20,733 nucleotides of DNA from a virus, in the IMG/VR virus record IMGVR_UViG_3300020442_002027, positions 1-20,733 of that record; one strand, written 5' to 3'. A program made the translations under genes and the position numbers. This document shows, in pieces, positions 8,519 to 19,885 of this stretch (position 1 is its first letter; each line of letters starts with the position of its first letter). The notes below the pieces were generated by a model. It was not told where the DNA came from and made no database searches. It saw only the letters and a program-made list of their open reading frames with translations.

Positions 8519-8536
8519 TTTTTTTTGTTTGTCGTG

Positions 8537-8565
8537 TTGACATATGAAAACAATGCCCCCATAAT
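8537..8565 (+). promoter_or_regulatory. sigma70-type promoter P1 of the accessory operon
   Basis: A perfect -35 TTGACA (8537-8542), a 17-base spacer and CATAAT (8560-8565, five of six matches) lie in the 81-base gap before 8600. Transcription should start near 8572, just ahead of the GACCAAATCT element at 8575-8584. The same layout recurs at 16017 and, more loosely, at 19202. Confidence 0.75.
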
Positions 8566-8574
8566 CTTATCATC

Positions 8575-8600
8575 GACCAAATCTAACACGGAGAAAAAAA
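8575..8600 (+). promoter_or_regulatory. conserved leader element, copy 1
   Basis: The short 5' leader holds GACCAAATCT (8575-8584), then GGAG (8590-8593), an A-run and ATG at 8600. Related leaders sit before 9218, 16079 and 19262. The predicted transcript start places GACCAAAT within the first few bases of the mRNA. Confidence 0.6.
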
Positions 8601-8938
8601 TGAAGAAGTATTCAATTTATCAGTTCACAAAGTATCACTTTGAAACAAACAATGCTGAACACAACAAAGATGTTCATAAGTTGTACTTAGATAGCATGGT
8701 GTTAGGCAAAGTTGCCCCACGCACATTTGATTTGCATTACGGGTTGGTGGGTTGGATTCATGCCGACAATCTGGATGAGGTGTTCGAGATTGGCAACATT
8801 GGCCCAGAAGGAAGAGTTATCAAGTTCTCAAAAAAGATGCGTTCTATCTCTGTCGGTGATGTTATCTGTGTCGATCATGAGCTTTACGTTGTGAAGCCAT
8901 GCGGTTTTGAACTGTTAGAAGAAGGGGTAGCGGCGTAA
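8600..8938 (+). CDS. accessory protein, possible YodL-like domain
   Basis: A 112-aa protein, first gene of the P1 operon. ATG 8600 has GGAG six bases upstream and an A-run between. The layout YSIYQFTKYHFETN, a middle YGLVGWIHADNLDEVFEIGN, and the end MRSISVGDVICVDHELYVVK then PCGFELLEE resembles the YodL-like domain (PF14191 type), where 'YxIYQL', 'LExIyxxFN' and 'SLSVSDVVxL...YYVDsxGFxxL' are conserved. YodL-like domains turn up in plasmid and phage accessory proteins near antirestriction-type genes. The match is by eye and partial, so the function stays open. The stop codon lies in the loop of a GC hairpin (8930-8943). Confidence 0.6.
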   Translation: MKKYSIYQFTKYHFETNNAEHNKDVHKLYLDSMVLGKVAPRTFDLHYGLVGWIHADNLDEVFEIGNIGPEGRVIKFSKKMRSISVGDVICVDHELYVVKPCGFELLEEGVAA

Positions 8939-8943
8939 GCCGC
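8930..8943 (+). other. GC hairpin with the stop codon in its GNRA loop
   Basis: GCGGC (8930-8934) pairs perfectly with GCCGC (8939-8943) around a GTAA tetraloop, a GNRA-type loop that contains the TAA stop (8936-8938). No T-run follows, so it is not a standard terminator. It may be an mRNA stability or processing element. Confidence 0.5.
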
Positions 8944-8961
8944 CCCCAAAGGGAGATGAAA

Positions 8962-9156
8962 ATGTTTTATAAAATCAGATTGATCAATATCGCTGGTTCA
9001 TCAGTTGAAGATAAAGTCTTTCATCAACTTGATGAGGCTAAGTCTGCCGCAGAGGCAACTGGTTTCGATACAGTTGTTGAGGGATATTCAGAGGGTTTTG
9101 ATGGTGGCTTAGAGTTCATGCTCTGTTATTCAGTCATATCTGGCTGGTCACAATAA
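8962..9156 (+). CDS. small hypothetical protein
   Basis: A 64-aa protein with no family I recognise. It reads as beta-alpha-beta (MFYKIRLINIAGSSVEDKVF, DEAKSAAEATGFDTVVEGYS, EFMLCYSVISGW). I chose ATG 8962 because GGGAG (8951-8955) is six bases upstream; ATG 8956 directly abuts it. It is the second gene of the P1 operon and is followed by a strong hairpin. Confidence 0.6.
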   Translation: MFYKIRLINIAGSSVEDKVFHQLDEAKSAAEATGFDTVVEGYSEGFDGGLEFMLCYSVISGWSQ

Positions 9157-9167
9157 CCACTCTGGAA

Positions 9168-9189
9168 GGTGGGGGCATAAGCCCCTGCC
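9168..9189 (+). other. strong intercistronic hairpin
   Basis: A nine-pair stem (9168-9176 with 9181-9189, core GGGGC/GCCCC, two G-U pairs) closes on the tetraloop ATAA. No T-run follows, but GACCAAAT (9196-9203) does. This combination in mid-operon suggests RNA processing or stabilisation rather than termination. Confidence 0.6.
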
Positions 9190-9195
9190 CATAGG

Positions 9196-9218
9196 CGACC
9201 AAATTTAGGAGAAAAAAA
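9196..9218 (+). promoter_or_regulatory. conserved leader element, copy 2 (no promoter)
   Basis: GACCAAAT (9196-9203), AGGAG (9207-9211), an A-run and ATG 9218 repeat the P1 leader, but no -10/-35 is visible upstream; a hairpin is there instead. This copy argues that the element acts in RNA. Confidence 0.55.
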
Positions 9219-9475
9219 TGAACTTGTTCGAAAAAAGAATCAATGAATATTCACAAAGCTACTCACAGTTCTGTGAAGCCGTGAAGGCATATTATAAAAT
9301 GACAGAGGAGCAGAGGAAAATATCAACAGATTTGAAACATGAGATTTATCATCATGTGGATGTGTGTAATGCGATAGCCGAAAAAATTGGATTTCAATCA
9401 CTCACAAAAGATTTCAGCAATCTAGGCACAGCTTATGATTGGCTGTTGATCGTACTCTCACAGGAGAAAAAATAA
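9218..9475 (+). CDS. small helical hypothetical protein
   Basis: An 85-aa mostly helical protein (NLFEKRINEYSQSYSQFCEA, TEEQRKISTDLKHEIYHHVD), with AIAEKIGFQSLTKDF and AYDWLLIVLSQEKK at the end. It is preceded by the second leader element with AGGAG six bases from the ATG. No family is recognised. Its TAA overlaps the next ATG (TAATG), so the two are coupled. Confidence 0.65.
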   Translation: MNLFEKRINEYSQSYSQFCEAVKAYYKMTEEQRKISTDLKHEIYHHVDVCNAIAEKIGFQSLTKDFSNLGTAYDWLLIVLSQEKK

Positions 9476-9843
9476 TGTTTATGGAAAGAACACTTGGCGA
9501 ATTAAAGCCTATCATTGACCAGCTTCATAAACTTGTACCGTATGAGGGAGCTTGTGAATCACCGCGTTCTAAGAATAAGGCTTTGGATAAATACAGGCGT
9601 GCGACTAACTGCGTTTATGATTTCTTCAATAACGGCCTCATCAACAGAAGAAGTGAGTTTGTGCGAATGTTTGGGAATGCACCTTACATAGACTCTTTCC
9701 GTTATATGTCACCTGATGGGTGGGACAGATGGGAGGATATCATTGCGCCACAGTTCAGACAAATCATCATGGATGCGGCTAAAGAACAGGGCATTCAGTC
9801 TGAGCCGACTTATCTTGACCTTTATTCTGAGGAGGCAAGCTGA
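9475..9843 (+). CDS. hypothetical protein of the P1 operon
   Basis: A 122-aa protein of unknown function, helical at the N-terminus (ERTLGELKPIIDQLHKLVPY) and aromatic later on (YIDSFRYMSPDGWDRWEDII). ATG 9475 follows AGGAG (9462-9466) by eight bases; an in-frame TTG at 9439 lies inside the previous gene without a ribosome site. It overlaps both neighbours by one base, so it belongs to the same transcript. No catalytic motif is seen. Confidence 0.65.
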   Translation: MFMERTLGELKPIIDQLHKLVPYEGACESPRSKNKALDKYRRATNCVYDFFNNGLINRRSEFVRMFGNAPYIDSFRYMSPDGWDRWEDIIAPQFRQIIMDAAKEQGIQSEPTYLDLYSEEAS

Positions 9844-11036
9844 TGGAAACTATCCTATTTAATGAGGCGATGAATGCCTTGGCAGTTCCAGATAGGGGCA
9901 TCTTAGGTTATTCGAAAAGCAAGATTGCTGAACATACAAAGCGTCACTTACAGGCAGAGATGATCGGATCTCAGAGGTTTGTGCTTGATGATAATATGGT
10001 CAGGCATTGCGTTGAGGCTTCTTTCGAAAAACCGTCCAATTTGCTGAAGTTTGCTGACAGGGCTATCCCGCCATTTGATTCTGTTTTTATTGAGTGGGAT
10101 GAAAAGACTAAATTGAGTCATGTCAAAAGCCAAACGGAGAAATTGGTTGGCGAGGATAAAGTTGACCCTGATGATTCAATGTCATCAAAAAAATGCGGTT
10201 ATCTAATCAGGCGTCTTAATGACAGGATTTTATATACTTGTGTTTGGTCTGACCCTGATGTGGGTGTGTATTTTGTGCCATATGGATTCTATTTCGAGCC
10301 AGATAGTCCTGTCTTTTTCAAAGACACACAAGGAACTGTGCTTGATAATGACATCGGGTATTCTTCAGTTGAGGAGGGTGAAGAGGCCTTTAGAAATCAC
10401 CAAATCACATCTGCGCTGATTTTGATGGGTCGCACTTACTGGATGACCCAAAAAGAGATAGATTCTGGATTTCGTGCAATCAATCCTGATTATCTAAATG
10501 ACCCACATTCCGCTGGTGACCAAGACAGTTGGCTGGATGTGTTGGAGGGCTTTAAAGCTTTTAATTGGTTTAGACAGCGGATTTTGACGGCAGAAACCGC
10601 GATGGGGCTTTATATGAATGACGATGAATATGTCAGAGGATATGACCCAAACGAAAACACGAAATTCGTCAATCAATGCAATGTCTCTATGGAAGGCGAT
10701 GTGAGATTTCTGATTTGCGCTTTAGGTTTCTTGAATTATGACCACATCGTTATCGAAAACAAAAAGCCTGAGCATGACATAACACCCCGTAAATATGGGC
10801 GTATCATTCCTCAAAATGAGTATCGGGTGGTATCTATTGATCTTCCTACGCGAGCAAAAAAGATCAGGCGTGGTATTCTTACGGGCAACGGAACGCCTAA
10901 AAAGCGTCACTGGTGCAGGGGTCATATTAGGCGGTACTCTGATGGTAGGCGTGTATGGATCAAGCCTCATGAGCGTGGAAACGAGGCTTATGGCACTATT
11001 TACCACGATTATCTGTTAAAAGGGAAAACTGCATAG
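9843..11036 (+). CDS. large hypothetical protein with HWxRGHxRR C-terminal motif
   Basis: A 397-aa protein, the largest of the P1 operon. ATG 9843 overlaps the previous stop and has GGAGG (9831-9835) seven bases upstream. The N-terminal two thirds are acidic and aromatic with no motif I recognise. The last 80 residues are basic: IIPQNEYRVVSIDLPTR, then KKIRRGILTG, RHWCRGHIRRYSDGRRVWIK, PHERGN and YHDYLLKG. A block of this type (HWxRGHxRRxxxGxxxWxxPxxRG) is familiar from unrelated phage proteins of unknown function, often at the C-terminus, and looks like a nucleic-acid-binding or structural basic tail. Function unknown. Confidence 0.65.
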   Translation: METILFNEAMNALAVPDRGILGYSKSKIAEHTKRHLQAEMIGSQRFVLDDNMVRHCVEASFEKPSNLLKFADRAIPPFDSVFIEWDEKTKLSHVKSQTEKLVGEDKVDPDDSMSSKKCGYLIRRLNDRILYTCVWSDPDVGVYFVPYGFYFEPDSPVFFKDTQGTVLDNDIGYSSVEEGEEAFRNHQITSALILMGRTYWMTQKEIDSGFRAINPDYLNDPHSAGDQDSWLDVLEGFKAFNWFRQRILTAETAMGLYMNDDEYVRGYDPNENTKFVNQCNVSMEGDVRFLICALGFLNYDHIVIENKKPEHDITPRKYGRIIPQNEYRVVSIDLPTRAKKIRRGILTGNGTPKKRHWCRGHIRRYSDGRRVWIKPHERGNEAYGTIYHDYLLKGKTA

Positions 11037-11045
11037 GAGAATATT

Positions 11046-11678
11046 ATGACAGATTTTGATAATATGATGGGTGTACATTATTTTGTAGAATATCGGCTTG
11101 AGTATCATTATGGCCCGTCTTTTACTTTTACCGACTCAGGTCACGTAGATATGGAGGCTTTCGATGAGCGTGACGCAGATGATCATTTTGAAGTGCTTGC
11201 TGTCTTTCATGATGAAGAAACAGAAAAACTATTCAGAACGCTTCATCCTCAATTAGATGAATATCACAAAAAAATTCATGCAGAAGATTCTTCAATCTAC
11301 GAATGTGATGAAGTACAGGTCACTAGAAATGAAATATCAAAAGCAAAAGCCACGCCTTGGGAGCCAGATATTGAATGGTGGTGGGAAAACATCGCCTGTA
11401 TAGATGGTGGTTTTGACCCTGATGAACATGGCTGGGATGCTACTGATAATAGCGGGAATCCATTTGAGTGGGAGAGCGATGACCTTCTGAAACAGGTTCC
11501 TAAGTTGAAAGATTTCATAAAGGTTTCCAATAAGCATTTTAACTGGAGAATAGATCTGACATCTTACGATGGGTTTACCTTTGAAGAAATCAGAAAAAGT
11601 TTTTCTGATGATGCCTACAATGTAATGACTTTGATGAAAGATATTTATTATTCTAGTGGCGATGATCTTTGGTATTGA
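11046..11678 (+). CDS. very acidic hypothetical protein
   Basis: A 210-aa protein with AGGAG just upstream of ATG 11046. By count it has 49 Asp/Glu against 18 Lys/Arg, spread along its length, and an unusual tryptophan cluster (PDIEWWWENIACIDGGFDPD, then EWESDD). No enzyme motif is seen. Such composition is typical of DNA mimics, of secreted or halophilic proteins, and of some anti-restriction or anti-defence factors. Here a phage DNA-mimic role is only a hypothesis. It is the last gene before the terminator at 11708. Confidence 0.6.
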   Translation: MTDFDNMMGVHYFVEYRLEYHYGPSFTFTDSGHVDMEAFDERDADDHFEVLAVFHDEETEKLFRTLHPQLDEYHKKIHAEDSSIYECDEVQVTRNEISKAKATPWEPDIEWWWENIACIDGGFDPDEHGWDATDNSGNPFEWESDDLLKQVPKLKDFIKVSNKHFNWRIDLTSYDGFTFEEIRKSFSDDAYNVMTLMKDIYYSSGDDLWY

Positions 11679-11707
11679 ATCCGCTTGGTTTGGTCGCTAA
11701 CGGATGG

Positions 11708-11740
11708 GAGGGGCAAGTCTAAGGCTTGCCTCTTTCTTTA
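11708..11740 (+). terminator. rho-independent terminator of the P1 operon
   Basis: GAGGGGCAAG (11708-11717) pairs with 11725-11734 (CTTGCCTCTT, ten pairs including two G-U) around a seven-base loop, followed by a T-rich run. It sits 30 bases after the last + gene and faces a minus-strand operon. The reverse strand has no T-run, so it acts on the + transcript. The loop also contains the stop codon of the minus-strand zinc-ribbon gene. Confidence 0.75.
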
Positions 11741-13147: not shown

Positions 13148-13259
13148 CCATTCTCCGCAAGATGTTGGTGATTTTGCGATCATAACAAAATAATGGGTTG
13201 CCTGTAATCAATTTTGTGATTATAAACCAATATGTATCTATAAGTGTCAGAGGGCGACC
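13148..13259. promoter_or_regulatory. divergent AT-rich promoter region
   Basis: A 112-base gap between the divergent nuclease and exonuclease genes. On the minus strand a perfect TATAAT lies at 13224-13219, with CTGACA (13250-13245) 20 bases upstream, a wide spacer. On the + strand TTGTGA (13214-13219) and TATAAG (13239-13244) are 19 apart. Both could be weak or activator-dependent promoters. AGGG (13251-13254) serves the + gene. Confidence 0.4.
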
Positions 13260-14024
13260 ATGAATGTATTTGAAAAACACGGAGTTATGCACTTATCAGC
13301 ATCAACTCTCAATCTCTGGGTATCACAACCCGCCAGATGTTTGATGAAAATAGCTGGAAAATTAGACGGTAGTGTAGGCGCATCAGCTTGGCGCGGCACG
13401 GCAGTTGATAAAGTTGTGACCCGAAAATTACAAAATCCTGAATTGAAACACGATGATCTAACCGCCGAAGCAGAGCGATTATTTGATCTGGAATCCAAAC
13501 AATCCAAATTTGAGCAACCAGAAGCCAAGTTGAAAAAAGAGCGGGGTGATTTGGGGGCGTTCATCAAATCAGCGACAGATTATTATGAGGAGTTGGGTGA
13601 GCCGTATGAGTCCGCCCAAGGCAAAGTGACTACTATGTTGCCTGATGTGCCTGTGCCATTTATCGGTTATTATGATTTGCGGCTAGGCGAAAAAGTGCGT
13701 GACATGAAAACAGGGAACGCCGTCAGTGCGTTGACATATGCTCATGCAAGGCAGGGATCAATCTATGGCTACGCTCTGAAGCGGGTTCCTGTGATTGATT
13801 ATATATCAAAAAAGGGCGTGACCAGCTTTGAGGTTACTGATGTTGATTATCATATCAGGCAAATTCAGATTGCGGCACGATCCCTTGAAATAGCGTTATC
13901 TTATAGCGATGACATACTGGAATGTTGTCAGCTTGTTTATCCAGATTTAGACCATTGGATGTGGTCTGATTCCGAGCGGGAAACCGCAAAATCAATATGG
14001 CAAATGGAGGCGACCAATGAGTAA
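13260..14024 (+). CDS. RecB/Cas4-like PD-(D/E)XK exonuclease
   Basis: A 254-aa nuclease, the probable 5'-3' exonuclease partner of the annealing protein next door. Residues 11-25 (HLSASTLNLWVSQPA) match the 'LSxSxLxxWxxCP' start of RecB-like nucleases. AWRGTAVDKVVTR (43-55) is the 'GxxxH/D' helix. The core is Asp139 in FIGYYDLRL and Asp148-x-Lys150 in VRDMKTGNA, with Gln165-x3-Tyr169 in ARQGSIYGYAL as motif QxxxY. No Fe-S cysteine set is seen, so it is not a classic Cas4. AGGG lies five bases before the ATG. It overlaps the annealing gene by eight bases. A lambda-exo-like resection role is inferred from context. Confidence 0.85.
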   Translation: MNVFEKHGVMHLSASTLNLWVSQPARCLMKIAGKLDGSVGASAWRGTAVDKVVTRKLQNPELKHDDLTAEAERLFDLESKQSKFEQPEAKLKKERGDLGAFIKSATDYYEELGEPYESAQGKVTTMLPDVPVPFIGYYDLRLGEKVRDMKTGNAVSALTYAHARQGSIYGYALKRVPVIDYISKKGVTSFEVTDVDYHIRQIQIAARSLEIALSYSDDILECCQLVYPDLDHWMWSDSERETAKSIWQMEATNE

Positions 14025-15974: not shown

Positions 15975-16016
15975 GGGAGGATTTTATTAATATACCATGA
16001 TTTTTTGTTCACAGTG

Positions 16017-16045
16017 TTGACGTAGGTCAACAATGGGTGTAGATT
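16017..16045 (+). promoter_or_regulatory. sigma70-type promoter P2 with an inverted repeat on the -35
   Basis: TTGACG (16017-16022), a 17-base spacer and TAGATT (16040-16045) repeat the P1 architecture. The -35 is half of a perfect inverted repeat, TTGAC-GTAG-GTCAA (16017-16030), a likely operator. Predicted start near 16052. Confidence 0.65.
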
Positions 16046-16054
16046 TTAAGGATA

Positions 16055-16079
16055 GACCAAATCTTAACGGAGTAAAAAA
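16055..16079 (+). promoter_or_regulatory. conserved leader element, copy 3
   Basis: GACCAAATCT (16055-16064) is identical to the ten bases in P1, then come ACGGAG, an A-run and ATG 16079. The distance from the -35 to the ATG is 62 bases here and 63 in P1. Confidence 0.6.
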
Positions 16080-16876
16080 TGACTATCGATGCTGAATACA
16101 TTATTTGCACAGGCCAAGGTGGCGGGATGTTCACCTTGCGCTGTTTTTATGATCATGCGTGGGATGGCACACCCAAGATGGCTCACATCAAAAATCTAAG
16201 CCGCGACCCTCATGAGGCTTTACAGAAAGCTCGTGACTATATCGTTTCTCAGGGCGGCGATCCAGATGGATTTTTTGCTAGTGACGTTCCAGTTCTCGCT
16301 GAGTTTGACCCAGAAAAGGTTTCTGATTTGAATACTTGGGGTGAATGTGACCCAAGGCGTCAGCACGATTTGAGTTTGATTGCAAAAGGTGAAATGCCTT
16401 TCGGCAAACATTCTGGTCAGGCGATTGCTGATATTCCTATTGAGTATTTTGCAAATTGGTATCTCGATGGTGACATTGACACAAAGCGTTCTGATACCGT
16501 GAAGGAGCGCATTCGTTTACAGCTTTTGTCTCGCCGTGATGAGTTTATGGCGGTTGTTGAGACAAACAAAGCGGCAGAAGCAAGACGGGAAGCAGAGCTT
16601 GAAGCCAAGCGGTCAAAGTCAAGTCACGTTGGTCAGATTGGTGATCGCATCGATATCACCGCAACAATTCAAGTTTGCAAGCAAGTAGAAGGCTTCTATG
16701 GAATTTCTTTTTTCACCATTCTTGAGAACAGCAAGGGCGATGTTTTCAAATATTTTGGCAGTGCAGAGCTTGGTGAAAAGGGTGAAACTATCACCTTGAA
16801 GGCGACCATCAAGGATCATTCTGAATATGATCAGGTCAAGCAGACCGTTATCAACCGCCCGAAAATAAAGGAGTAG
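16079..16876 (+). CDS. DUF3820-like plus OB-fold-like protein
   Basis: A 265-aa protein, first of the P2 operon. Residues 104-130 carry GEMPFGKHSGQAIADIPIEY, then FANWYL. This is the DUF3820 pattern ('MPFGKYKGxxLxDIPxxYLxW'). A charged helix (about 140-180) leads to a C-terminal domain (about 185-262; GQIGDRIDITATIQVCKQVE and GETITLKATIKDHSEYDQVK) resembling an OB-fold seen in phage proteins ('VGxxxxxxxTVxxV...TLKATVKxHxEYxxxKQTxxxR'). This suggests a nucleic-acid-binding protein, possibly replication-linked. The N-terminal 100 residues are unknown. The combination is inferred by eye. Confidence 0.65.
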   Translation: MTIDAEYIICTGQGGGMFTLRCFYDHAWDGTPKMAHIKNLSRDPHEALQKARDYIVSQGGDPDGFFASDVPVLAEFDPEKVSDLNTWGECDPRRQHDLSLIAKGEMPFGKHSGQAIADIPIEYFANWYLDGDIDTKRSDTVKERIRLQLLSRRDEFMAVVETNKAAEARREAELEAKRSKSSHVGQIGDRIDITATIQVCKQVEGFYGISFFTILENSKGDVFKYFGSAELGEKGETITLKATIKDHSEYDQVKQTVINRPKIKE

Positions 16877-16879
16877 ATT

Positions 16880-17119
16880 ATGTCTAAGAGATGGATGCAG
16901 TTTGACACTAAAGGATTCAAGGGCAATGCAATTCCAAGAGAAGTGCATAACGATGTTGCAAAAGTTCTTGTCAGGTGGATGCGGAAACAGGGGTATACGC
17001 CAGCCAGTAAAGATATGGAGGTTTACCTTGAGTTCGCAATGTTTGTAAAAGATAAACCAATGGCGGGTTTCAATAGCCCAGAAAGGAAGGCGACCAATGA
17101 CATCACCCATTCATATTGA
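16880..17119 (+). CDS. small hypothetical protein
   Basis: A 79-aa basic protein (KRWMQFDTKGFKGNAIPREV, DVAKVLVRWMRKQGYTPASK, DMEVYLEFAMFVKDKPM). ATG 16880 follows AAGGAG (16868-16873), three bases after the previous stop. No family is recognised. Its end overlaps the next gene by 23 bases. Confidence 0.6.
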   Translation: MSKRWMQFDTKGFKGNAIPREVHNDVAKVLVRWMRKQGYTPASKDMEVYLEFAMFVKDKPMAGFNSPERKATNDITHSY

Positions 17120-17324
17120 TCAAGATCAAGGCGGCACAGAGGCTTTTTGTGCCGCACTTAAATCTATTGCAGAGGATCACACACCCGCGAACTTACAAGC
17201 TGTTGTGTGTAGTTTAACCGAGGATGAGTGCCGACTCTTACAGGCTCTTGTTTTCAAAATTGAAGATTACTTGCATGATCGTGTGCAAGTATTTGATGAG
17301 GAGTTTTTATATGAAACCAGATGA
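17097..17324 (+). CDS. small acidic hypothetical protein
   Basis: A 75-aa mostly helical acidic protein (GGTEAFCAALKSIAEDHTPA, SLTEDECRLLQALVFKIEDY). The ATG at 17097 is preceded by GGAAGGCGACCA, the same GGnnGGCGACCA context seen before 14017. It overlaps both neighbours. No family recognised. Confidence 0.6.
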   Translation: MTSPIHIDQDQGGTEAFCAALKSIAEDHTPANLQAVVCSLTEDECRLLQALVFKIEDYLHDRVQVFDEEFLYETR

Positions 17325-17508
17325 ATTGAGAAAAATGCGTTTGCAATCGGGTATGTCGCAAGAGCAGTTGGCAAGGCGACTAGGTTACAATCACAGATCG
17401 AGCATTTCTATGTTTGAATCTGGCAAACGGTACATCAACCCGCGTATGCGGGTGGCGATGGAGGCCGTTTTACAAAAGGGGCAATTAGAAAATGATAAGC
17501 TGGCATAA
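17311..17508 (+). CDS. XRE/Cro-CI family helix-turn-helix regulator
   Basis: A 65-aa protein consisting of one HTH_3-type domain: DELRKMRLQSGMSQEQLARR, LGYNHRSSISMFESGKRYIN, PRMRVAMEAVL. The 'MSQEQLA...SxxSISxxExGxRxI' spacing is typical of Cro/CI-like regulators. ATG 17311 has GAGGAG (17297-17302) eight bases upstream; the longer in-frame starts fall inside the previous gene. It could act on the inverted repeats at P2 or P3, but the target is unknown. Minimal length suggests a Cro-like repressor rather than a cleavable CI. Confidence 0.8.
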   Translation: MKPDELRKMRLQSGMSQEQLARRLGYNHRSSISMFESGKRYINPRMRVAMEAVLQKGQLENDKLA

Positions 17509-17713
17509 TTATCCGAAACACTCACACAAAGGCTATGTATACTTGCCAGAGGTTGATGAGGATGAGGAGGGCATACGGAAGGCGACACATCGTTGTGTAA
17601 GCCGTACAGACCCCACAGACGTTATGATACATCAGACATTCACACCTTATGAATGGATGACAGAGCTTCAGTTCAAGGAATTTGTAAACAAAATGGTGAG
17701 GGTAAGACAATGA
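17492..17713 (+). CDS. small hypothetical protein
   Basis: A 73-aa protein with aromatic and charged residues (ISWHNYPKHSHKGYVYLPEV, DEDEEGIRKATHRCVSRTDP, PYEWMTELQFKEFVNKM). It overlaps the regulator gene by 17 bases and the lipoprotein gene by four. AAGGGG lies about 11 bases upstream. No family recognised. Confidence 0.55.
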   Translation: MISWHNYPKHSHKGYVYLPEVDEDEEGIRKATHRCVSRTDPTDVMIHQTFTPYEWMTELQFKEFVNKMVRVRQ

Positions 17714-17949
17714 AGTATTTTATTGTGACTGCATTAATTCTGCTTACAAGTTGCACTCATACGCCTGTCGTTGATTTACGGGCATCTAAAGAACAGGCTC
17801 AGGTTTTTCAGCGTGATTTGATGGAATGTGAGGTGCTTGCAAAACAGATTACAGGGAATGCTATTTCAAGAGTTCTGTTTACAGGCTACCGTCAAGCAAT
17901 GAATAATTGCATAACAGGCAGGGGTCATTCAGTGTTGAATAATTGGTAG
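17710..17949 (+). CDS. small lipoprotein
   Basis: A 79-aa predicted lipoprotein. The signal peptide MKYFIVTALILLTSC has a lysine at position 2, a hydrophobic core and the lipobox LTSC, so Cys15 would be lipidated after cleavage. The mature part (THTPVVDLRASKEQAQVFQR, DLMECEVLAKQITGNA) has two more cysteines and resembles small phage and bacterial lipoproteins that start 'CxxxPVxDxxxxxxxxYxxDLxEC'. ATG 17710 follows GAGGG (17698-17702) by seven bases. Surface modification, exclusion or lysis roles are possible; it lies far from the lysozyme, so it is not an obvious o-spanin. Confidence 0.75.
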   Translation: MKYFIVTALILLTSCTHTPVVDLRASKEQAQVFQRDLMECEVLAKQITGNAISRVLFTGYRQAMNNCITGRGHSVLNNW

Positions 17950-17955
17950 GGGATT

Positions 17956-18126
17956 ATGTATATCGCTGTTTATTATCAGAATGAACCCGTTTTTGTTTGT
18001 CATACAAAATATAAGCAAGCCGCCAAAGAAGTGTTGGATCATTGGGAAAAAATATCAAAAGAGTTTGATGATTTCAAAATTGTAGAGTTACAGTTTGATC
18101 CGTTTTTTCAGGGTACTTGTCACTGA
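17956..18126 (+). CDS. 56-aa hypothetical protein
   Basis: A short reading frame starting MYIAVYYQNEPVFVCHTKYK and ending QFDPFFQGTCH before TGA 18124-18126. AGGGGA (17948-17953) is close upstream. The beta-alpha-beta look (strand, helix AAKEVLDHWEKISKEF, strand KIVELQF) and its perfect fit into the gap between neighbours argue that it is a real gene. Function unknown. Confidence 0.6.
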   Translation: MYIAVYYQNEPVFVCHTKYKQAAKEVLDHWEKISKEFDDFKIVELQFDPFFQGTCH

Positions 18127-18139
18127 TATGGAGATGAAT

Positions 18140-18319
18140 ATGAGTATGAGATTTGTGAAAACCATCAAACTTTTTTCAGTAATTATCGCTCTTTTTTTCT
18201 TTATGTTGTTTTTCGAGTGGATGATCATAAACGCAGTTTTGGGTTGCTATCAGTGGAATCAAGTAATGTGGACTGATCATCAAATCTGTTTCACTATGAA
18301 GCAGTTTATAGGAGCATAA
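18140..18319 (+). CDS. small membrane protein
   Basis: A 59-aa protein with a long hydrophobic span (KLFSVIIALFFFMLFFEWMI, about 10-29) and a polar tail with two cysteines (LGCYQWNQVMWTDHQICFTM). Four in-frame ATGs lie within 20 bases; 18140 is six bases after GGAG (18130-18133). Function unknown. Its stop is one base before the dioxygenase start. Confidence 0.55.
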   Translation: MSMRFVKTIKLFSVIIALFFFMLFFEWMIINAVLGCYQWNQVMWTDHQICFTMKQFIGA

Positions 18320-18320
18320 A

Positions 18321-18896
18321 ATGGCACTTGCAGTCCCGCCTAAAAATAGTGAACGTGAATTTTCTATTTTATCAGCGTTTCAGATTTCACAAAAAGATTG
18401 TCAAAACCTGATTAATTTACACAAAAATTCACAAAATCCACAGAAACAAGGCAGAGTGATAGATGATGGTTCAAATGTTGTGAATCTTTCAACCAGAGAT
18501 GTAGATGTATGGGTCATTCATGAAGATAATATCGGGGTTGATGAGCTTATGTTGAAGGCCGCGATTGAGGCTAACAAAAGCTATGATATGCAAATCACAG
18601 GCATAATTGAAAGACCGCAACTGTTGAGATATACCGCACCGTCTAATGGGTATGGCTGGCATTTAGATATTGGGCGAGGGGATGCCTCAACCCGAAAAAT
18701 CAGCGTGTCTTTATTGCTGAATGATGATTATGAGGGCGGTGAATTAGGCTTTTTTTCAGAAAAAGAAAGTTTTATCAGGCCAGAAACAGGCATGGCGGTC
18801 TGTTTTCCAGCATTTATGCCTCACTGTGTTAAGCCTATCACCAAGGGTGAGCGGTGGTCATTGGTATGCTGGGTTGGCGGGGAGCCTTTACGATGA
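18321..18896 (+). CDS. 2-oxoglutarate/Fe(II)-dependent dioxygenase (PKHD/P4H type)
   Basis: A 191-aa enzyme of the prolyl-4-hydroxylase-like superfamily, which uses 2-oxoglutarate and O2 to hydroxylate or demethylate a substrate. The iron triad is visible: His114 and Asp116 in YGWHLDIGRGD, and His168 in AFMPHCVKPI; Arg178 in KGERWSLVCWVGG would bind 2-oxoglutarate. The central sheet is SVSLLLNDDYEGGELGFFSE. This resembles PiuC-like PKHD hydroxylases, frequent in marine phages and cyanophages. AGGAG (18310-18314) lies six bases upstream. The substrate is unknown; protein, nucleic acid or a small molecule are all possible. It converges with the next gene by nine bases. Confidence 0.9.
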   Translation: MALAVPPKNSEREFSILSAFQISQKDCQNLINLHKNSQNPQKQGRVIDDGSNVVNLSTRDVDVWVIHEDNIGVDELMLKAAIEANKSYDMQITGIIERPQLLRYTAPSNGYGWHLDIGRGDASTRKISVSLLLNDDYEGGELGFFSEKESFIRPETGMAVCFPAFMPHCVKPITKGERWSLVCWVGGEPLR

Positions 18897-19193
18897 TTCA
18901 TCATCACCATAAAAATACGCCTCAACCTCTTCATCAGTCATGGAGGCAAAATCTGGTTCTTTTGGAACGAGTCTCAATCGGGGTGTTGATTTTTTCTTTT
19001 TACTACGGGGCTTTAATTTTTTTTCTGGTTTTGGTTTTTCTATGGGCGGTAATACGATGACAGTTTCAAGGGTGGTAAATCTTGTCTCACATCTTAGACA
19101 CATCCGTAATCTTGTTTTGCCGCTGGGCAAGTCCCTCGGCTTGGTTGGGAAAACTTTTAGTTCAGTAGATTTACAATTCGGACAAGTAAGCAT
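18888..19193 (-). CDS. NrdR-like zinc-ribbon protein without ATP-cone
   Basis: A 101-aa minus-strand protein. The N-terminus copies the NrdR zinc ribbon: Cys4-x2-Cys7 (MLTCPNCKSTELKVF) and Cys32-x2-Cys35 followed by RFTTLE (38-43), the NrdR signature. NrdR normally continues into an ATP-cone that senses dATP/ATP; here it is replaced by a Lys/Pro/Ser-rich basic stretch (EKKLKPRSKKKKSTPRLRLV) and an acidic tail (MTDEEVEAYFYGDDESS). It is thus a DNA-binding ribbon on a flexible tail. It is the only minus gene among + genes here and is divergent from the initiator, with a perfect inverted repeat between them. A regulatory role is inferred. Confidence 0.75.
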   Translation of the reverse strand: MLTCPNCKSTELKVFPTKPRDLPSGKTRLRMCLRCETRFTTLETVIVLPPIEKPKPEKKLKPRSKKKKSTPRLRLVPKEPDFASMTDEEVEAYFYGDDESS

Positions 19194-19201
19194 GATATAA
19201 G

Positions 19202-19230
19202 TTTACATCAAATGTTACAAAATGTAACAT
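19202..19230 (+). promoter_or_regulatory. promoter P3 and palindromic operator
   Basis: TTTACA (19202-19207), 17 bases and TAACAT (19225-19230) form a weaker version of P1/P2. ATGTTACA-AAA-TGTAACAT (19212-19230) is a perfect 8-bp inverted repeat covering the spacer and -10, an ideal repressor site in the divergent gap between the zinc-ribbon gene and the initiator gene. Confidence 0.65.
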
Positions 19231-19239
19231 TATATAAGC

Positions 19240-19262
19240 GACCAAATGAACGGAGTATTTTA
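19240..19262 (+). promoter_or_regulatory. conserved leader element, copy 4
   Basis: GACCAAAT (19240-19247), ACGGAG and ATG 19262 repeat the leader of P1 and P2. The -35 to ATG distance is 60 bases. Confidence 0.55.
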
Positions 19263-19885
19263 TGAGCTTTCAAGCAATGTCATGGGCGGCAGAACAGAAT
19301 TGTCCCAGTTCTGTGTCTAAGCTGGTATTATTGATGCTAGCTAACTATGCAAATGACCGCCATCAAACCTACCCATCTTATAAAAAGTTGGCTGAGTTGT
19401 GTGCCTGTAATGAAAGGACAGTTATGAGGGCAATCAATCAGCTCAAAGAGCTTAATCTTTTGACAGTCACAAAGCGTTATGGGGAGGATGGCAAGCAAAC
19501 AAGCAATACCTTTACCTTATATGTTAGGGGTGACAAAAAAGACAGGGTGGGGGTGACAAAAAGAACACCCAATACTATCAGAGATATACATAATAATAAT
19601 AATGTTGTTAGGGGTGACAAATACACCAGTGAGTTTTTAGAATGGTGGAATCTATATCCGCGTAAAGATGGATCAAAGGCCAAGGCTTTCGAGAGTTGGA
19701 AAAAGGCCACAAGCAAATTTATTGAAAAGTCAGATTTATTCTCAGCAACAAAAAAGTTTAAGCAGTCATGTTCGGGTCAGGAGAAAGCTTATATTCCTCA
19801 TGCAACCACATGGCTTAATCAAAAGAGATGGGAAACTGTCTCAGTAGAACAGGCGACCACAAACAGAAATCAGCTTGCGGGGTAA
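19262..19885 (+). CDS. lambda-O-like replication initiator (HTH + DnaT/O-like C-domain)
   Basis: A 207-aa replication protein. Residues about 5-75 are a winged helix-turn-helix (SSVSKLVLLMLANYANDRHQ, YPSYKKLAELCACNERTVMR, AINQLKELNLLTVTKR) of the kind that binds phage origins. A linker (about 85-120) follows, and then a C-terminal domain (EFLEWWNLYPRKDGSKAKAF, KAYIPHATTWLNQKRWE) typical of phage replication proteins that recruit helicase. The linker DNA contains three direct repeats and an AT-rich tract, as in lambda O. It has its own promoter and leader and is followed two bases later by a primase-helicase. Family call good; origin role inferred. Confidence 0.82.
   Translation: MSFQAMSWAAEQNCPSSVSKLVLLMLANYANDRHQTYPSYKKLAELCACNERTVMRAINQLKELNLLTVTKRYGEDGKQTSNTFTLYVRGDKKDRVGVTKRTPNTIRDIHNNNNVVRGDKYTSEFLEWWNLYPRKDGSKAKAFESWKKATSKFIEKSDLFSATKKFKQSCSGQEKAYIPHATTWLNQKRWETVSVEQATTNRNQLAG
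19527..19621 (+). other. candidate replication origin: three iterons and an AT-rich tract
   Basis: GGGGTGACAAA occurs at 19527-19537, 19550-19560 and 19611-19621; the first and third extend to a 15-base match, GTTAGGGGTGACAAA. Copies 1 and 3 share a reading frame but copy 2 is in another, so the repeat is kept as DNA, not as protein. Between copies 2 and 3 lies an AT-rich tract with ATAATAATAATAATG (from 19590). No copy is seen in the reverse orientation. Confidence 0.65.

Follow-up and report, generated by a model that had tools for sequence, protein, structure and literature searches.

Promoters and leader boxes of the window

The window, a 20.7-kb virus record analysed over all its 20,733 nucleotides, contains three non-coding modules (P1, P2 and P3) of similar design that stand before different genes, and they raise the question of whether one control cassette has been copied or whether several signals are combined, and what would read them. 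All three modules possess promoter hexamers, GACCAAAT, GGAG and ATG at the positions that the initial annotation had assigned to them. P1 consists of TTGACA at 8537, CATAAT at 8560 (spacer 17), GACCAAAT at 8575, GGAG at 8590 and ATG at 8600, and P2 of TTGACG at 16017, TAGATT at 16040 (spacer 17), GACCAAAT at 16055, GGAG at 16069 and ATG at 16079; the spacing of 17 and the distances of 63 (P1) and 62 (P2) bases from -35 to ATG, both claimed earlier, were recovered from the sequence. P3, which had been described as a weaker version of the same plan, is just that, with TTTACA at 19202, TAACAT at 19225 (spacer 17), GACCAAAT at 19240, GGAG at 19252 and ATG at 19262, 60 bases from the -35. Scored as sigma-70-type promoters (-35 and -10 hexamers separated by 16–18 bases), P1 (TTGACA-17-CATAAT, 8537–8565, plus strand) has 11 of 12 consensus bases, the joint best value in the window, and P2 (TTGACG-17-TAGATT, 16017–16045, plus strand) and P3 (TTTACA-17-TAACAT, 19202–19230, plus strand) have 9 of 12 each. 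A constant absent from the initial annotation is the distance from the first base of the -35 to the start of GACCAAAT, which is exactly 38 bases in P1, P2 and P3. Judged from the position of the -10 hexamer, it would therefore lie at about +3 of the transcript. A spaced search similar to the one that had been proposed as a check, TTGAC-N28-42-GACCAAAT, returned two matches in the window, compared with 0.03 expected in shuffles, and GACCAAAT-N3-12-GGAG was found four times on the plus strand and never on the minus strand, with no match for the reversed control pattern.

The leader box of P1, CGACCAAAT...CACGGAG (8575–8593, plus strand), combines a candidate antisense target with the Shine-Dalgarno sequence and precedes ORF 8600–8938, a gene for which a search for close relatives found none; 10 nt of this box pair with the loop of a hairpin in the window itself, described below. 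The P2 box, GACCAAATC...ACGGAG (16055–16072, plus strand), was identified by pattern search and loop match and precedes ORF 16079–16876. In P3, the box AGCGACCAAAT-GAAC-GGAG (19240–19255, plus strand) precedes the replication initiator gene (19262–19885), has an 11-nt match to the window's own loop, and is kept in relatives whose protein is 83% identical. The P3 promoter is located between a divergent NrdR-like ORF (18888–19193, minus strand) and the rep gene, and includes a perfect palindrome, ATGTTACA-AAA-TGTAACAT (19212–19230), that is unlike the dyad of P1 and P2 discussed below. P1 leads an operon of ORFs 8600–11678, P2 one of 16079–18896, and P3 the replication initiator gene. The P2 operon ends with a 2OG-Fe(II) oxygenase gene (18321–18896; Pfam PF13640, PHROG 61).

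A fourth box, GGCGACCAAAT-TTA-GGAG (9197–9211, plus strand), is intercistronic and promoterless; it follows a GC hairpin, GGGGGC-ATAA-GCCCC, and precedes ORF 9218–9475. GC hairpins at gene ends were seen at 8914–8953 and 9160–9196 of the window and in four relatives (G010 9852, G019 18616, G022 8516 and G029 8834). Several of them hold the TAA stop codon of the upstream gene in the loop (GGGGC-nTAA-GCCCC); they have no U-run, and the ribosome-binding site of the next gene follows directly.

Two separable layers

The modules can be divided into two layers. The first is the sigma-70-type promoter, whose -35 lies inside a dyad, TGTTGAC-N4-GNNAACA, and the second is the leader box, (G)CGACCAAAY, placed shortly before the Shine-Dalgarno sequence. 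The dyad is imperfect in P1 (TGTTGAC-ATAT-GAAAACA, 8535–8552, plus strand) and perfect in P2 (TGTTGAC-GTAG-GTCAACA, 16015–16032, plus strand). The AACAATG block noted initially is present, and corresponds to the right half of this dyad, which is probably an operator. The window also encodes an HTH protein (17224–17508), a candidate for binding the dyad. Ten aligned module copies have in common GTTGAC, the second half-site (A/C)AAC, the -10 region and GACCAAA; the intervening bases vary freely. A single relative can have the dyad at as many as four of its promoters, and it is also present in G015 and G016, whose leaders have a different box. Leader boxes without a promoter occur at 9197 of the window, at 9852 of G010 and at 18616 of G019, in each case behind a hairpin. 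Because the box is found without the promoter, and the promoter and operator without the box (G015, G016), the layers are separable, and the single promoter-plus-leader unit implied by the initial annotation is not borne out.

The same module precedes many unrelated genes in related marine phages. A scan of IMG/VR for the spaced module returned 23 stretches, about 16 of which are clear modules before assorted genes, and GACCAAA..GGAG occurs 29 times in 11 records, compared with one occurrence of the reversed control; since these records, and the first copies of the RNA described below, were found by motif search, some of the counts are partly circular. This circularity does not affect the subgroups collected through homology of the terminase or the helicase; these contain less GACCAAA and more AACCACGGAG, the word matched by a second seed, (U)UCGUGGUU. 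The records are fragmentary, and ORF starts were taken from a crude script. Of the two explanations offered initially, co-regulation is thus well supported by the presence of the module before many different genes, while simple duplication of a cassette was rejected, as the copies have only the boxes in common and the sequences between them are unrelated. A host regulon was likewise rejected: the stricter module pattern gave 12 scattered matches, about the chance level, in 257 Gb from 85,000 bacterial and archaeal genomes. Among cultured phages, no close relative was found.

The position of GACCAAAT at about +3 could also mean that it acts in the DNA, as an initial transcribed sequence or a downstream operator, in which case the modules would merely be co-regulated promoters. 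The fixed distance of 38 from the -35, shared by P1, P2, P3 and both G010 promoters, would fit such an element. However, the distance is 40–41 in other relatives, the boxes at 9197, G010 9852 and G019 18616 have no promoter, and G015 and G016 have the same operator without the box, which makes this explanation very improbable.

A complementary hairpin in related phages

The first clue to a partner of the leader box came from GACCAAA..GGAG matches in the gap before the terminase small-subunit gene (terS) that run opposite to the genes on either side. These were rejected as further leaders, as the flanking genes, the promoter and the terminator are on the other strand. Related phages carry a hairpin with UUUGGUC(G), the complement of the leader box, in its loop. 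It is mostly free-standing in the replication-to-terminase interval, where it has a promoter to itself and, in the majority of subgroups, a terminator as well. On the coding strand, the unit comprises a TAGACA-16/17-TAAATT/TAATAT promoter, in most cases a 5' hairpin, CUCCGU, a small hairpin with the loop GGUUUGGUCGCC, and an intrinsic terminator. G001, G004, G006, G022, G023, L184, L194 and L205 have the CUCCGU...GGUUUGGUCGCC unit between their replication and terminase genes, and further copies were found by pattern and by terminase homology. The seed is invariant across copies while other parts vary, and the terminator stem of L194 differs yet still pairs. The copy in G029, with AUUUGGUC, has diverged completely, and each of the three leaders of this phage has GACCAAAT, with U at the matching place.

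A terminator-anchored search, which does not start from the motif, recovered most units and two further forms. The first, in other subgroups, has the promoter TGGACA-16-TATNAT, the stretch (U)UCGUGGUU, a 10-bp stem and the invariant loop UUUGGUCG; (U)UCGUGGUU matches the commonest leader of those subgroups, AACCACGGA(G), with one wobble pair. In one subgroup, CUCC is complementary to the Shine-Dalgarno sequence at a matching distance. Where subgroups have both seeds, their order is wrong for one single linear duplex with one leader. G015, G016 and their kin, which have no CUCC...UUUGGUC before terS, had served as "sRNA-negative" controls, and were dropped when this search found another form in them; the argument from co-occurrence was dropped as well. 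A hairpin with GACCAAA in L137, a different phage, was judged unrelated, and in Roseobacter phage CRP-6 (terL 47% identical) none of the five TTTGGTC sites resembles the hairpin. The very diverged phages L198–L231 keep TTTTCGTGGTATnA with an A-run before terS (for example near 3470 in L198), perhaps a cos site, a packaging site or a promoter.

In the relatives, the units have sequence features expected of a trans-encoded sRNA: an own promoter and an intrinsic terminator without a coding frame, the T-tract being weak in some copies of the helicase subgroup, and a conserved seed complementary to several mRNAs. The units do not fit the pattern of cis-antisense phage RNAs such as OOP and sar, which are transcribed opposite their target; they are situated kilobases away from the boxes, in spaces that separate other genes.

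The hairpin in the window

The second further form includes the window's own copy, which lies in the 3'UTR of the P1 operon (11679–11736). A candidate antisense seed hairpin, ATCCG[CTTGGTTTGGTCGCTAA]CGGAT (11679–11705, plus strand), recovered by the terminator-anchored search and by its loop matches, directly follows the stop codon of ORF 11046–11678, and is itself followed by an intrinsic terminator (11706–11739, plus strand), the most paired terminator-like site in the scan. This copy, which precedes the strongest terminator of the window, shares 12 nt, TGGTTTGGTCGC, with the relatives. In G027 and G028, the hairpin is in the same kind of place, after the operon's last gene or a homologue of it and before the terminator. 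The seed is placed between stop codon and shared terminator in all three (11676–11739 in the window), the arrangement of a 3'UTR-derived sRNA. In location, the window copy differs from the relatives' free-standing units with their own promoter. The window ends before the replication-to-terminase interval, and the 3'UTR copy is the only one assignable to this phage.

This location would also allow pairing within one molecule, since the P1 transcript carries a box at its 5' end: rather than acting in trans, the 3'UTR hairpin might bind the leader of its own mRNA, for protection or for feedback on translation, and its place after the operon's last gene or a homologue, before the terminator, in the window, G027 and G028 would suit such a role. 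Yet in most relatives the hairpin stands apart, with a promoter of its own, and the box is also present in the P2 and P3 leaders, which belong to other transcripts. We consider pairing restricted to one mRNA quite unlikely.

Covariation and target matches

The stem of the hairpin covaries strongly while its loop stays fixed. In the class with a 10-bp stem, all 10 pairs are formed in 8 of 8 sequences, and 9 of the 10 have changed on both sides; 15 cells are double changes, compared with 4.0 ± 1.8 in shuffles (0 of 500 reached the observed count), and slid controls were all far lower. The class with a 5-bp stem has 55 of 55 cells paired, with 3–5 pair types per position. Of 63 TTTGGTCG sites in these genomes, 17 are in the loop of a hairpin closed by at least 5 Watson-Crick pairs, compared with about 5–12% for similar 7-mers.

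Matches of at least 8 pairs to the loop or to the single-stranded seed were found at 92 of 654 gene starts; shuffled seeds gave 18.9 and control windows within coding sequence gave 8. The small records alone do not reach significance, and a seed with CUCC has by itself a preference for Shine-Dalgarno regions. Within the window itself, the 17-base loop finds a match at 9 of 48 starts, a value reached by none of 1000 shuffles and by one of 2438 other 17-mers of the window. With the G001 seed, the four box-led genes rank 1–4 of 45 by duplex energy, partly by construction.

Besides the replication initiator and small early genes, the predicted targets in the window include some of a second type, GGCGACCA. 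One, of the GGCGACC-AATG type, is located between the Shine-Dalgarno sequence and the ATG of ORF 14017, which encodes a Sak annealase (14009–14016, plus strand, 9-nt match), and another precedes the ATG of ORF 17097 (17089–17096, plus strand, 9-nt match). A weaker candidate is GGCGACC before the ATG of the exonuclease-like ORF 13260 (13253–13259, plus strand), where an 8-nt match lies elsewhere in the upstream region. Across all records, GGCGACC stands 7–8 bases before the ATG of 19 genes, so that the target word has another position as well, following the Shine-Dalgarno sequence and preceding the start codon. Many gene starts of G072, G077, G078 and G065 have AACCACGGAGACCAAA-ATG, a second target word that is matched by (U)UCGUGGUU of their RNA unit.

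The box might instead be a translation enhancer, an A/C-rich, unstructured standby or S1 site that works without an antisense RNA, with the hairpins being terminators whose loops match by chance. GACCAAA and AACCAC are indeed A/C-rich and lie just upstream of the Shine-Dalgarno sequence, where ACA motifs enhance translation of the GcvB targets yifK and dppA (PMC3879156), and boxes are also fused to the Shine-Dalgarno sequence, as in GACCAAAGGAG. Left unexplained, however, are the invariant loop on a fully covarying stem, the conserved promoter ahead of the hairpin, and CUCC at a matching distance to the Shine-Dalgarno sequence in one subgroup. An enhancer without an antisense RNA is therefore unlikely; the two ideas are compatible, as GcvB silences just such A/C-rich enhancer elements at that place (PMC3879156).

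Discussion

We propose, with a probability of roughly 0.7, that these phages encode a multi-target antisense RNA that pairs beside or over the ribosome-binding sites of phage genes. Direct support is provided by the recurrence of the module, the complementarity, the covarying stem, the conserved promoter, the terminator and the gene position. Transcription of the RNA and its pairing in cells, repression rather than activation, and timing are what we infer from these sequence features. P1, P2 and P3 would be early-gene promoters of a marine tailed phage, the dyad operator of P1 and P2 probably being read by a phage repressor or activator, and the leader box (G)CGACCAAAY of P1, P2, P3 and 9197 would be the target of the antisense RNA. 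The hairpin with the UUUGGUC(G) loop would be made as a free small RNA from its own promoter in the relatives, and in the window as the 3'UTR of the P1 operon, ended by the terminator. Its 8–13 base pairs, formed next to or across the Shine-Dalgarno sequence and inside the 30S footprint, would block 30S loading, and in some relatives CUCC would add pairing to GGAG itself. Repression is proposed because such pairing ordinarily represses translation initiation, as in GcvB. Translation would be lowered for a set of early genes, encoding the replication initiator, recombination functions and small early proteins, and the outcome would be feedback or an early-to-late switch. In the window, where the RNA would come from the P1-operon 3'UTR, feedback is likely; in the relatives, the free unit in the replication-to-terminase interval could possibly serve an early-to-late switch or immunity.

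A search of Rfam 15, which includes the C4 antisense RNA, gave no match above the gathering cut-off in the window or the relatives. The c4 antisense RNA of phages P1 and P7 offers a likeness, as it pairs with repeated complementary sites in the phage's own leaders. The same is true of the P4 CI RNA with seqA and seqC (PMC4825925); that RNA, however, causes premature transcription termination, confers immunity and is cut out of the very leader that it regulates, whereas the unit described here is far from its boxes and has a promoter of its own, and the boxes adjoin the ribosome-binding sites of several operons. The enterobacterial sRNA GcvB blocks the translation of many mRNAs by pairing its one GU-rich seed to an A/C-rich element that shortly precedes their Shine-Dalgarno sequence (PMC3879156). 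One seed, many leaders and an A/C-rich site by the Shine-Dalgarno sequence are common to both systems, but GcvB is chromosomal and longer with an unstructured seed, whereas the RNA proposed here is encoded by the phage, addresses phage mRNAs and presents its seed in a hairpin loop; the two are unrelated in sequence. Lambda OOP, P22 sar and lambda aQ are also small phage RNAs that pair with phage mRNA (PMC12197685), but each is cis-antisense to one overlapping gene, in contrast to the short repeated trans sites here. VpdS of phage VP882 and PreS of lambda are phage sRNAs that stand free and work in trans; the target of PreS is a host gene, VpdS acts through Hfq on host and phage RNAs, and a shared leader code in the phage's own operons is not described there (PMC12197685). 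OOP, sar, aQ, the P4 CI RNA, VpdS and PreS each share one property with the RNA proposed here, but a target word that recurs at several operons of the same phage is found with none of them. Plasmid antisense RNAs of the CopA/RNAI type resemble it in their covarying stem and conserved U-rich loop that starts pairing, but have one cis-encoded target and control copy number, whereas many targets are found here. The UUUGG of the loop fits the YUNR U-turn. Literature searches that covered few subscription journals yielded nothing relevant for GACCAAAT together with phage, and no description of this system.

More tentatively, and with rather less confidence than the pairing itself, these phages may form a marine family with a "leader code", in which one RNA box before the ribosome-binding sites of the early operons is silenced jointly by one fast-evolving antisense RNA, its loop frozen and its body drifting, either to switch from early to late expression or to give immunity to superinfection by relatives that use the same code. 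In the sources consulted, the phage antisense RNAs described so far mostly act on one overlapping gene or on host mRNAs. If true, an RNA for which the phage reserves a target word in several of its operons would be a compact post-transcriptional regulon, found from sequence in uncultured marine phages, and the combination of recurring leader words with hairpins that display their complement would provide a way to find similar RNAs.
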